From an uncultured bacterium (lineage in GTDB: Bacteria > Patescibacteriota > Minisyncoccia > Phycocordibacterales > UBA9973), in the NCBI GenBank assembly GCA_903825255.1, contig CAIJZZ010000010.1, positions 1 through 44,575 on the forward strand: DNA of 44,575 nt, given 5' to 3'. Within the stretch, counting starts at the first letter, position 1, and each line of letters begins with the position of its first letter. The notes beneath the pieces are model-generated. The model saw only the letters and a program-made list of their open reading frames with translations, was not told the DNA's origin and searched no databases. This document shows, in pieces, positions 10,657 through 41,893 of this stretch. Made by a program: the position numbers and the translations under genes.

Positions 10657-10662
10657 ATTATA
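10657..10662 (-). promoter_or_regulatory. -10 hexamer of ksgA, 6 nt from ATG
   Basis: Perfect TATAAT on the minus strand, followed by 6 nt and then the ATG at 10650. It overlaps the uvrD stop codon (10658-10660). A transcript starting about 7 nt downstream of the -10 would begin at the start codon. No good -35 is seen. Confidence 0.6.
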
Positions 10663-12742
10663 TATAAATTGTTTTAATTCCGCTCTGTTCCCCTTCTTTT
10701 TCTAATAAGTCTGCTGGGATATCAGCAATAAATTCAGATGGAGCATTGATTTGTCGAGAGCCGAAGATGGTGCGAAAATTTGCAAACGATAAAAATAATT
10801 TTTCTTTGGCGCGAGTGAGGGCAACATAAAAAAGTCTGCGTTCTTCCTCAGCATCTTCGACACTCTTTGTATTGTCTCTCTGGTGCGGGAAAAGTCCATC
10901 TTCGAGACCAGTAATAAAAACATATTTAAATTCGAGTCCCTTGGCAGCGTGGATGGTCATGAGCTTAATAGCGTCTATCTTTTCTTTCTTTTCTTCATTC
11001 ATTAAAATTGAATCTTGGTCGGAAGCGAGTGATGCATCCTCTAAAAGTTTTTCAATACCTAGGCCATTTTCCCCGCCTGCTCCCTCGTGAGGGCGGGCAG
11101 GTAAATTATCATATTTGAGTGCTAAAGTAGCCAATTCCTTTATATTTTCAAGCCTTTCCAGCTCTTCTTCTGTTCCCCCTTCTCGTAATTCAGCTTCAAT
11201 GCCGGATTTTTTAACTGCAAACTTTATCACCTCAGAGGCTTTGGAGTTTTCAATTTTTTCTTTTATTTCTTCTAAGGTTTGGTAAAAATTTTGAATTTTT
11301 ATTTGCATTTTTATTGGTAAATTTTCTGTTTCTTTGGCAAATATTTTTAGGAGAGTCGCTTTACCTATACCACGCGCAGGGAAATTTATAATGCGTTTAA
11401 TATCCGAAAGACTTTGAGGGTTTAAGGCAGCTCGCAAATAGGCGAGTGTGTCTTTAATTTCTTTTCGTTCAAAAAATTTCACACCAAGCACTTGATACGG
11501 AATGTTATAACGCAACATTGCTTCTTCTAAAACACGAGATTGAAAATTTGCCCGATATAAAACTGCAATTTCAGACAAGATGTTCTCGGACTCACCACTG
11601 GGATTTATTTCAGCAAAATTAGCAGAATTTTCTCGGGTCCTCGGTTTGGGGCCAGACCAGCTCGAAAATTCTCTAATTTTGCTTTCATTTAAAGCGGGTT
11701 CGGATGAGCCGTCCAACAATTCTAAAATTTTTGTGGCGACAAATTCGGCTTCATCATTTTCTTCGAGAGCTTCATAAAGGCCTATCTTCTCCCCTATTTC
11801 ATTTTTAGTAAATAAATTTTTATCAGGGCGATACTTATTTTTTTTAATTATTTCATTCGCTGCTTCGAGAATGTTTTTAGTCGAGCGGTAGTTTTCTTCT
11901 AAAATTACTATTTTGGTTTTTGGATAATCTTTTTCAAAACTTAAAATATTTTTTAAATTCGCTCCACGCCAAGAATAAATATTTTGGTCTGCGTCACCTA
12001 CCACACAAATATTCTGATTATTTTCAGATAGTAGTTTTGACATCAGATATTGCACTTCATTGGTGTCTTGATATTCATCTATGTGAATATATTCCCAGCG
12101 TTCTTGATATATTTTTCTGATTTCTTTATTTTCTTTTAAAAGCTTTACCACTTTCAAAAGTAAGTCATCAAAATCAAGAGAGTTTTCAGCCATTTTCTTT
12201 TTCTCATATAAAGTCCAAACCTGTGCCACTACCTTACTTAAATAGTCATAAGTTTTTTCGGCATAATCTGTGAGCTCTGTAAACTTACCTTTTTCTCGGC
12301 TGATAATATTTTTAATTCTTTTTGGTTCATATTGTTTCGGGTCTAAATTTATCTCTTTAATTGATTCTTTGACCAGAGAAATAGAATCATTTTCATCTAA
12401 AATAGTAAAATGCCTCGTGAGACCTAGAGCATGAGCATTTTCTTTTATAATATGTACTCCTAAGGAGTGAAAAGTACTCACAAAAGGTACTTTATTTTGG
12501 CCTTTTGCATTTTTTTCAATTTCCTTGATTATTCTCTCTTTCATCTCCTTGGCTGCTTTATTAGTAAAAGTGACAGCAAGTATTTTTTCTGGGGCAACAC
12601 CCTCTTTTATTAAATTTACGATTCTATGGGTAATAGTTTTCGTTTTTCCTGCTCCCGCTCCGGCAATAATCAAAAGCGGACCTTCCTTATGTAAGGCCGC
12701 TTCTCTTTGAGCTCCGTTTAATCCTTCTAAGTGATCATCCAT
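10658..12742 (-). CDS. uvrD: UvrD/PcrA-type superfamily 1 DNA helicase
   Basis: An ATP-dependent 3'-5' helicase for nucleotide excision and mismatch repair and for removing replication blocks. The 694 residues show LNGAQREA (Q motif), Walker A AGAGAGKT (about 27-34), DEYQDTN (Walker B, motif II), GDADQNIYSWRGA (III), ENYRS (IV), and the late motifs LMTIHAAKGLEF and EEERRLFYVALTRA. Two segments do not fit the family. A Ser/Pro/Arg-rich stretch near residues 340-385 corresponds to a 70-bp inverted repeat in the DNA. LPARPHEGAGGEN near residue 550 corresponds to a GC palindrome. Both keep the frame. The start at 12742 follows an extended TG-T-TAAGAT -10 by 7 nt. Confidence 0.95.
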   Translation of the reverse strand: MDDHLEGLNGAQREAALHKEGPLLIIAGAGAGKTKTITHRIVNLIKEGVAPEKILAVTFTNKAAKEMKERIIKEIEKNAKGQNKVPFVSTFHSLGVHIIKENAHALGLTRHFTILDENDSISLVKESIKEINLDPKQYEPKRIKNIISREKGKFTELTDYAEKTYDYLSKVVAQVWTLYEKKKMAENSLDFDDLLLKVVKLLKENKEIRKIYQERWEYIHIDEYQDTNEVQYLMSKLLSENNQNICVVGDADQNIYSWRGANLKNILSFEKDYPKTKIVILEENYRSTKNILEAANEIIKKNKYRPDKNLFTKNEIGEKIGLYEALEENDEAEFVATKILELLDGSSEPALNESKIREFSSWSGPKPRTRENSANFAEINPSGESENILSEIAVLYRANFQSRVLEEAMLRYNIPYQVLGVKFFERKEIKDTLAYLRAALNPQSLSDIKRIINFPARGIGKATLLKIFAKETENLPIKMQIKIQNFYQTLEEIKEKIENSKASEVIKFAVKKSGIEAELREGGTEEELERLENIKELATLALKYDNLPARPHEGAGGENGLGIEKLLEDASLASDQDSILMNEEKKEKIDAIKLMTIHAAKGLEFKYVFITGLEDGLFPHQRDNTKSVEDAEEERRLFYVALTRAKEKLFLSFANFRTIFGSRQINAPSEFIADIPADLLEKEGEQSGIKTIYI
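11072..11101. repeat. GC-rich palindrome in uvrD (element 1)
   Basis: The outer arms are CCTGC (11076-11080) and GCAGG (11097-11101); the inner hairpin is CCCTC-gt-GAGGG (11082-11093). It encodes the LPARPHEGAGGEN segment between two otherwise normal helicase segments. Confidence 0.65.
11613..11682. repeat. 70-bp inverted repeat inside uvrD (element 2)
   Basis: The left arm GCAAAATTAGCAGAATTTTC (11613-11632) and right arm GAAAATTCTCTAATTTTGC (11664-11682) are inverted copies differing by one extra base. They enclose a GC-rich core with TCGGGTCCTCGG. The right half, TCGAAAATTCTCT, recurs in comM at 40862-40874. It has the shape of a tiny MITE-like or RPE-like insertion that keeps the helicase frame open. 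Confidence 0.7.
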
Positions 12743-40279: not shown

Positions 40280-41893
40280 ATGAGCTTTGCAAAAGTTTAT
40301 TCGGCACAAGTAAACTTACTGTCTGGGCAGATCGTCACGATTGAAGTGGATTTATCGCGGGGACTACATTCTTTTTCGGTGGTTGGATTGCCAGATAAAG
40401 CAGTCGATGAGTCTAAAGATCGTGTCAGTTCAGCAATTAAAAATTCTGGTTTTCAGTCTCCTAAATCCAAGAATCAAAGAATCATTGTTTCCCTATCACC
40501 AGCGGACCTTAAAAAAGAGGGGCCATTTTTTGATTTAGCCATTGCTCTTTCTTATATGTTGGCTGCCGGAGATTTGAAATTTAATCCAGAAAAGAAAATA
40601 TTTTTAGGGGAACTGGGGCTCGATGGTGTTTTGCGTAGAATCCGCGGAACCCTGCCCTTAATTCAAGAAGCGAAGAAAATGGGATATGAAGAAGTTTATC
40701 TGCCGAAAGAAAATGCGGAAGAGGCGGCACTAGTGGAAGGCATAAAAATTTTTGGTGCGAATAGTTTAGTGGAGGTTGTGGAACATTTGGGCCTCAGTGA
40801 GCCTAGCAAAATTTCTTCGCCTGCCCGAATCGCTACGCGAAGCGTTGCGGGCGGGGGTCCTCTCGAAAATTCTCTGAATTCTTCCAAAGGTATCACAGTT
40901 CAGCCAAAAACTGAAATAAAATATGAGAGTAAGAATTATGGCGCGGACTTCGCTGAAGTACGCGGGCAAGAAGGAGCCAAGCGCGGGCTCGAAATAGCTG
41001 CTGCTGGCGGACACAATATCGCCATGTATGGACCACCGGGCACCGGGAAAACGATGCTCGCCCGAGCTTTCTCGCAATTACTACCCGATTTGAGCTTAGA
41101 AGAAGTTTTAGAAATTACTGGCATTCATTCTGTGGCGGGAGCGACGAGAGGTGAGCTTGTCTCTGCTCCGCCTTTTCGGGCCCCGCACCACACTTCTTCT
41201 TACGTTTCATTAATCGGCGGAGGAACATATCCCAAACCAGGCGAAGTGACTCTCGCACATAGAGGTGTTTTATTTTTAGATGAATTTCCTGAATTTGAAA
41301 AACGAGTAATTGAATCCTTGCGTCAACCTCTGGAAGACAATATTGTTTCTATCTCACGAGCGAAAGCTTCCGCAATTTTTCCTTCCAATTTTATTTTAGT
41401 GGCGGCGATGAATCCTTGTCCGTGTGGAAATCAAGGTTCTAAACAAAAAGCTTGTATTTGCAAACCATCTGATTTGGATCGATATAAAAGAAAATTATCT
41501 GGACCGATTATGGATCGTATTGATTTATGGGTCTCTGTCGGCAATGTGGACTATAAAAAATTGAGTGGAGAGGGGACGGGAGAAAAAAGTCAGTTTATAA
41601 AAAATAGAGTTTTGAAAGCACGCGAAATGCAGAAAAATCGCTTTCAAAAATTAGGCCGAAATATCAACACGAATAGTGAAATGAATGTAAAAGATTTGAA
41701 TGAAATAATTAAATTAGAGAGTAGCGTGCGAGATTTGTTGGATGACAGCGCTGCTCGTTTGGCTCTCTCGGCACGAGCGTATCATCGAGTCATCAAAATC
41801 GCTCGCACCATCGCCGACCTCGAGAATTCTTCGGAGATAAAATCAGACCATATTTTAGAAGCAATACAATATCGGCCGAAAGTGAGCAATTAA
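40280..41893 (+). CDS. comM: ComM/YifB family Mg-chelatase-like AAA+ ATPase
   Basis: A hexameric helicase-like ATPase that promotes branch migration of incoming DNA during natural transformation. The 537 residues show the N-terminal ribosomal S5-like domain (VDLSRGLHSFSVVGLPDKAVDESKDRV), then FAEVRGQEGAKRGLEIAAAGGHN, Walker A GPPGTGKTM (near residue 253), Walker B FLDEFPEF, a sensor region and the C-terminal Mg_chelatase_C part (with NPCPCGNQGS). The linker between the domains (about residues 175-210) includes SSPARIATRSVAGGGP, encoded by a GC palindrome. A role in DNA uptake is plausible for a CPR host that imports nucleotides and DNA, though none of the other competence genes is here. Confidence 0.95.
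   Translation: MSFAKVYSAQVNLLSGQIVTIEVDLSRGLHSFSVVGLPDKAVDESKDRVSSAIKNSGFQSPKSKNQRIIVSLSPADLKKEGPFFDLAIALSYMLAAGDLKFNPEKKIFLGELGLDGVLRRIRGTLPLIQEAKKMGYEEVYLPKENAEEAALVEGIKIFGANSLVEVVEHLGLSEPSKISSPARIATRSVAGGGPLENSLNSSKGITVQPKTEIKYESKNYGADFAEVRGQEGAKRGLEIAAAGGHNIAMYGPPGTGKTMLARAFSQLLPDLSLEEVLEITGIHSVAGATRGELVSAPPFRAPHHTSSYVSLIGGGTYPKPGEVTLAHRGVLFLDEFPEFEKRVIESLRQPLEDNIVSISRAKASAIFPSNFILVAAMNPCPCGNQGSKQKACICKPSDLDRYKRKLSGPIMDRIDLWVSVGNVDYKKLSGEGTGEKSQFIKNRVLKAREMQKNRFQKLGRNINTNSEMNVKDLNEIIKLESSVRDLLDDSAARLALSARAYHRVIKIARTIADLENSSEIKSDHILEAIQYRPKVSN
40820..40855. repeat. GC-rich palindrome inside comM
   Basis: The arms are CCTGCCCG (40820-40827) and CGGGCGGG (40848-40855), with an inner CGCT/AGCG pair (40831-40844). 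The sequence just downstream, GGTCC...TCGAAAATTCTCT (40855-40874), is shared with the uvrD inverted repeat at 11636-11673. Confidence 0.65.

Follow-up and report, generated by a model that had tools for sequence, protein, structure and literature searches.

The window analysed here, a stretch of 44,575 nucleotides from an uncultured bacterium of the Patescibacteriota, carries on its minus strand a uvrD reading frame, named from its own sequence and from orthologues in the genus, which stays open through a compact hairpin element (Table 1). The inverted repeat that the first-pass annotation had placed inside uvrD at 11613-11682 was found at exactly that position, with both arms and a core in the open minus-strand frame. 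When folded as RNA (96 nt), the hairpin reaches -29.5 kcal/mol with a z-score of -5.27, a value matched by none of 200 shuffles. The covariance model R1, whose training set included the uvrD copy, matches the window at 11612-11682 with 52.8 bits (E 2.5e-9, a rough value after a short calibration), the runner-up reaching 17.8 bits. A second GC-rich hairpin of a different type lies inside uvrD at 11061-11105, with the peptide LPARPHEGAGGENG. In gene sense, the flanks of the element (11696-11706 and 11574-11596) carry CGAACCC on one side and GTGGTGAGTCCGAGAACAT on the other; since these resemble the ends of another hairpin family present in UvrD of genomes G035, G010, G048, and G005, the copy in uvrD may be nested in an older element.

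Table 1. Positions of the uvrD hairpin and of the probable degraded copy in comM within the window
Feature	Position	Strand	Basis
Family-1 hairpin element in uvrD	11613..11682	+ (gene on -)	covariance model R1, BLAST, fold, core copies
Left arm GCAAAATTAGCAGAATTTTC	11613..11632	+	pairs with 11664-11682
Conserved core GGTCCTCGG-TTTGGGG-CCAGACC	11636..11658	+	core pattern and 42-copy alignment
Right arm GAAAATTCTCTAATTTTGC	11664..11682	+	pairs with left arm
uvrD reading frame, 694 aa, open through element	10658..12742	-	translation and genus orthologues
Probable remnant left arm of degraded family-1 copy in comM	40805..40819	+	same 15 bases as trmD-copy left arm
GC-rich hairpin at expected core position, comM copy	40820..40855	+	inverted repeat and fold
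Probable remnant GGTCCTC and right arm TCGAAAATTCTCTG, comM copy	40856..40876	+	word match, BLAST

A partial match to the repeat in comM, read in the opposite coding sense, had originally been taken as strong evidence for a dispersed element family. The match is present directly after the GC-rich hairpin at 40820-40855, although it occupies 40856-40876, one base off the 40855-40875 first given, and GGTCCTC together with TCGAAAATTCTC indeed lies on the plus strand in both genes, uvrD being encoded on the minus and comM on the plus strand. Taken alone, the comM stretch aligns weakly with the uvrD element (BLAST E 0.56), and its fold is no better than that of shuffled sequences (z -0.75). Because its leftmost 15 bases are identical to the left arm in trmD, and its rightmost 13 to the right arm in uvrD, it is probably a decayed and rearranged family-1 copy, the centre of which has been lost and replaced by another hairpin. 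The pair is thus not in itself strong evidence for dispersal, whereas the dispersed family is borne out by the copies described below.

The hairpin in uvrD is one copy of a dispersed family. The exact core, GGTCCTCGG followed by a loop and CCAGACC, occurs 16 times in its own genome (G000, a 78-contig assembly with an estimated contamination of 6.34%), where the reversed control pattern has no match, and a BLAST search of the same genome with the uvrD element returned further copies (best E 5e-17). The absence of other copies and of length polymorphism at the site had been proposed as a refutation, and neither holds: besides the 16 genomic copies and the genus hits given next, UvrD loop lengths span 8 to 68 residues in the 45 parsable loci of the 66 fetched. 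Within the genus, 38 genomes out of 60 contain the exact core, and new subtypes of it have multiplied in individual lineages. The exact pattern was not found in any of the 40 single genomes that represent other families of the same order. A covariance model trained on 42 copies, with E-values that are again rough, matched 31 of the 297 genomes of the order searched with it, belonging to 19 of 165 genera, and the core or a close variant (e.g., AGTCCTCGG..CCAGACA) was present in 31 of the 32 model-match loci fetched. The exact motif is thus genus-typical, whereas the family is order-wide. A scan of wider genome contigs for the exact core was dominated by chance hits from genomes of high G+C: among at least 116 stretches listed, three had an arm score above 7, of which two G+C-rich ones scored 9 each and one, L142 from a Patescibacteria MAG, had real arms (score 13). 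L142 (247-271) represents Patescibacteria group bacterium isolate REEB175, a relative that carries the element with site-specific arms. In the openly accessible literature searched, no earlier description of such elements in CPR bacteria was found.

The genome studied here has copies in the frames of UvrD, cysteine desulfurase, TrmD, RecA, IleRS, RecJ, LigA, MnmA, UvrB, and PheT (names taken from the translations), the RecA copy lying in an N-terminal extension and PheT containing two copies. In the family-1 copy of RecJ (L009, G000:C9:13040-13123), the central loop is a longer, different hairpin, and a longer central hairpin of this kind (GGTCCTCGGGTCGCC..CTCAACCAGACC) is found in several genus genomes. 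A reading frame of 170 aa or more runs through 47 of the 61 distinct copies, of which 35 are in gene orientation and 12 in antisense, but not through the other 14; five of the six frames are used by family-1 copies. Elsewhere in the family and order, outside the genus, a long frame passes through the element in one of seven 3-kb loci (L434 of L434-L440). Across sites, the LigA, UvrD, MnmA, and IleRS rows contain no internal stop, the sole row with stops in the UvrD search being an antisense match to another element copy rather than UvrD, and the inserts therefore look read through, not skipped or spliced. Their translation would follow from these open frames.

While the centre of the element is conserved, its arms are not. 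In the 42-copy alignment, conservation is confined to GGTCCTCGG, CCAGACC, and the adjoining T and A runs; the core forms a structured hairpin with covarying internal pairs, and the arm-proximal TRCTTTT..AAAAGYA recurs between copies and hence belongs to the element. When the two arms of each of the 61 copies were scored for pairing, the median was 14 for own arms versus 3 for swapped arms, and the own-arm score exceeded the 95th percentile of swapped pairs in 54 copies. This difference rules out arms that are conserved terminal repeats, and thus amends the earlier view of what the copies have in common: the core is shared, the arms are not. Within a single genome (G266), four copies (L435, L442, L443, and L444) have an identical core and unrelated arms. 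Either the arms therefore fail to move along with the core, or they are rewritten at a later stage.

Orthologous loops in relatives were found empty, filled, or differently filled. For LigA, 80 genus genomes were searched, 73 matched, and 70 loci were fetched, of which 63 could be parsed; the loop is short (11 aa or less) in 25 and long (15 aa or more) in 38. By eye, the long loops hold at least six hairpin families, with family 1 in some of them only, and inserts of these families fold down to -77 kcal/mol. One LigA zinc-finger loop (L072-L141) accordingly houses at least six apparently unrelated hairpin families within a single genus. For UvrD, where parsing by regular expressions missed some of the 66 fetched loci, 37 of the 45 parsed loops exceed 30 aa and seven measure 13 aa or less; seven contain the family-1 core, ten a second family (GGGTGTCTCGCAGGC..AGACAGCGACCC), and four a third. 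MnmA yielded 62 loci, 52 of them parsed and 47 distinct, with 13 loops empty and 34 filled, and most of the 30 IleRS loci parsed (out of 41) have a six-residue loop. The second family has a core of some 62 nt, nearly invariant and containing several helices (GGGTGTCTCGCAGGCYGACGRGCCGAGAGGCAGCGCT..AGACAGCGACCC). It lies in loops of UvrD, IleRS, and MnmA (L259:1766-1876 and L393:193-303 are examples) and was aligned from 19 copies in both orientations; it has no Rfam match. In the IleRS loops of L391, L395, and L397, different cores occupy one site between similar arms of the TCGCCTGATGCTTTT type, as if cores had been exchanged inside an existing hairpin. Insertion into a pre-existing palindrome is unsupported, the empty LigA and MnmA loops being devoid of long palindromes. 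As the genomes compared are species representatives, filled and empty pairs are distant, and no near-identical pair capturing an insertion event was seen among them.

The MnmA loop offers a direct view of where an arm may come from. A native loop consensus, QNKNNTLLKGNDPS, was obtained from 10 of the 13 empty loops, and 12 of the 34 filled loops retain 8 or more of the native left flank's first 12 bases. In 10 of these 12, a reverse-complement copy of that flank, 9-21 bases long, is located beyond the core and beside the native right end, so that this arm reverse-complements neighbouring sequence that was already in place, as expected of a template-switch hairpin. The longest copies are those of L402 and L426 (21 bases each) and of L424 and L404 (15 each), whereas swapped pairs reach 12 at the 99th percentile and 17 at most; given the low-complexity A+T composition of the flank, the shorter cases L414, L417, and L418 are weak, as is L359, which falls below 9 bases. 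The other 22 filled loops have no native-like left flank, and in L407, L409, and L422 the right flank seems to have been kept instead (judged by eye). At LigA and IleRS, where no arm can be recognised as native, the inverted-copy test is silent, leaving MnmA as the one site at which it is clear. An unsystematic look at filled and empty MnmA loops revealed no direct target-site duplication; the flank appears instead to be copied in inverted orientation. An origin of the arms from the local flank is thus supported for the sites where a native flank can be recognised.

The two arms also change in a coordinated way. In eight LigA orthologues, 15 outer pairs are 95.0% paired, falling to 55% or less when the alignment is slid by one column, and 30 cells have changed on both sides versus 2 on one side, that is, paired substitutions without G-U intermediates, the pattern expected of template switching; the covariation score was reached by none of 500 shuffles. 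In the 19 copies of the second family, 26 of 43 predicted pairs have changed on both sides and 47 columns are invariant, while in the mixed set A2 of this family two T-run pairs with six one-sided changes each run counter to that pattern. Family-1 arm mismatches, read on the coding strand, comprise 54 transversions, 22 A-C, and 13 G-U; the corresponding A-C and G-U counts are 62 versus 26 in LigA and 54 versus 48 in UvrD, which are weaker evidence because mismatches of the conserved core are included. Pairing of the arms at the mRNA level is unsupported, as G-U is not enriched over A-C (13 versus 22). Considering the both-sided changes and the scarcity of G-U mismatches, rewriting of one arm from the other at the DNA level would fit better than selection on the transcript. 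Template switching has been described both as making and maintaining hairpins (PMC8794818) and as homogenising inverted repeats in coding sequences (PMC8604942).

We therefore lean towards a two-part element, judging it rather probable that a small mobile core spreads and that it acquires its arms, and later has them restored, through fold-back template switching that uses the flank. The core, about 25-45 nt, would consist of GGTCCTCGG, a short variable hairpin, and CCAGACC, with a T-run/A-run stem alongside, whereas the arms, 10-28 bp, would be specific to each site, one being native flanking sequence of the gene and the other that sequence in inverted form. Once a copy of the core had been placed at a new position, its stem, by pairing with itself, would fold the growing DNA strand back, and the polymerase would copy the flank as reverse complement before rejoining the original template. 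The same fold-back switching could later re-match arms that have drifted, and copies within genes would survive only where the frame is kept, no stop arises, and the loop is tolerant, to be translated as extra peptide. The sequence comparisons support the family, its in-frame placement, the site-specific arms, their coordinated change, and the inverted MnmA flank copies; from these we infer the fold-back mechanism, a core that would need no dedicated transposase, and the way in which it would move. Counting against this reading are the restriction of a clear inverted-copy signal to MnmA, the recurrence of arm-proximal sequence between copies, and the frequency of Y1 transposases in the genus, which could supply the mover.

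An alternative is a palindromic MITE- or RPE-like repeat moved whole by a transposase acting in trans, the arms of which would subsequently diverge while staying complementary. A candidate mover would be a Y1 enzyme (REP-associated or IS200/IS605 type) recognising the hairpin in single-stranded DNA, and Y1 domains occur in 55 of 80 genus genomes, with three in the genome studied here. A structured core with covarying internal pairs, its presence in both orientations, and the expansion of new core subtypes within lineages all speak for such a mover. However, copies with identical cores in one genome have no common arms, and core and Y1 are not significantly associated in 60 genomes (31 with both, 7 with core only, 13 with Y1 only, and 9 with neither; Fisher p 0.07), the core-only genomes including G052, which has 2 contigs and is listed as 100% complete. 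In addition, five Y1 loci (16.8 kb) contain no model match. Transposition of the whole repeat is accordingly conceivable but rather unlikely, and in view of the non-significant co-occurrence and the lack of copies at Y1 loci we regard copying of the core during replication as slightly likelier than movement by a transposase.

Selection for RNA function, through regulation, ribosome behaviour, or mRNA processing, could likewise keep hairpins and explain compensatory arm changes. The very stable folds of the LigA inserts and the many compensatory pairs agree with this idea, and hairpin selection could also keep arms paired. Nevertheless, the elements are found both sense (35) and antisense (12) to the gene and alternate at one loop with unrelated families or with empty sites; moreover, the coding-strand excess of A-C over G-U arm mismatches is contrary to RNA pairing, and one-sided intermediates are nearly absent in LigA. 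No Rfam family accounts for the elements in the window and 11 other element-bearing loci: above the gathering threshold, tRNAs alone were reported in the window and in the 11 loci, the latter further matching an sRNA family that had been defined within a helicase gene, besides weak hits under the threshold. An RNA function as the cause of the hairpins thus appears improbable. Finally, convergent base composition or chance, i.e., unrelated inverted repeats in an A+T-rich gene, agrees with the poor score and unremarkable fold of the comM stretch alone, yet is scarcely credible for the family and refuted for the uvrD repeat by its further copies, the question being settled by 16 exact cores versus 0 reversed controls genome-wide, along with the genus-wide and order-wide occurrence.

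Returning to the mobile core with locally copied arms, its nearest known kind is the Rickettsia palindromic element (RPE). According to the description in PMC2229807, RPEs are 105-146 bp long with 12-bp terminal inverted repeats and are, like the present elements, short dispersed palindromes lying in frame in conserved protein genes, where they are translated and tolerated; the in-frame, stop-free insertion in conserved protein genes found here agrees with this. An RPE family would be expected to be conserved along its full length, ends included; here only the central core is common, the core columns alone being invariant in 42 copies, and the arms differ from site to site and resemble the flank. 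Template-switch (quasi-palindrome) hairpins offer another parallel, in that reverse-complement copying makes or repairs perfect stems with paired substitutions, as outlined in PMC8794818 and PMC8604942; those, however, are local mutations without a mobile part, whereas here a conserved core recurs.

REP/REPIN sequences with their RAYT (Y1) enzymes are similarly short structured palindromes in many copies, and Y1 is present in most genus genomes. On the other hand, no column is conserved beyond the core and the T/A runs in the 42-copy alignment, and thus no tetranucleotide foot of the REP/RAYT types (GTAG and CGTC, as given in PMC3733652), and the genus copies are largely in coding sequence rather than extragenic. 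With MITEs the elements share being short, non-coding, dispersed, and bounded by inverted repeats, but MITEs, as characterised in PMC2229807, have common terminal inverted repeats and direct target-site duplications, while here own and swapped arms show the terminal repeats to be site-specific, with no repeat common to the copies, and the duplicated flank appears to be inverted. Coding palindromes in Nematomorpha mitochondria are also near-perfect inverted repeats inside translated genes (PMC6649704), although both of their arms encode conserved residues and the part of PMC6649704 drawn on here mentions no common core. We class the present elements as palindromes within proteins that combine a conserved centre with arms of local making, a variant beside RPEs.

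The spread of palindromic elements such as RPEs has so far been unclear, and here the centre and the arms can be separated. With dozens of relatives in which the same loop is filled, empty, or differently filled, this spread becomes testable by comparison and by replication assays. More speculatively, and with considerable doubt, the core could be an enzyme-free mobile element, selected only for turning the replication machinery round and spread by template switching that mirror-copies the flank, several unrelated cores having converged on this habit and competing for the same protein loops. The open frames further indicate that essential proteins of these reduced genomes carry tens of extra residues as by-products of mobile DNA, with consequences for annotation and for the reading of CPR-specific insertions as function. 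With a centre that is kept and arms that seem to mirror whatever lies beside them, the repeat has reached many genes in these tiny Patescibacteria-like organisms, which points to a possibly unusual mode of dispersal for short DNA.
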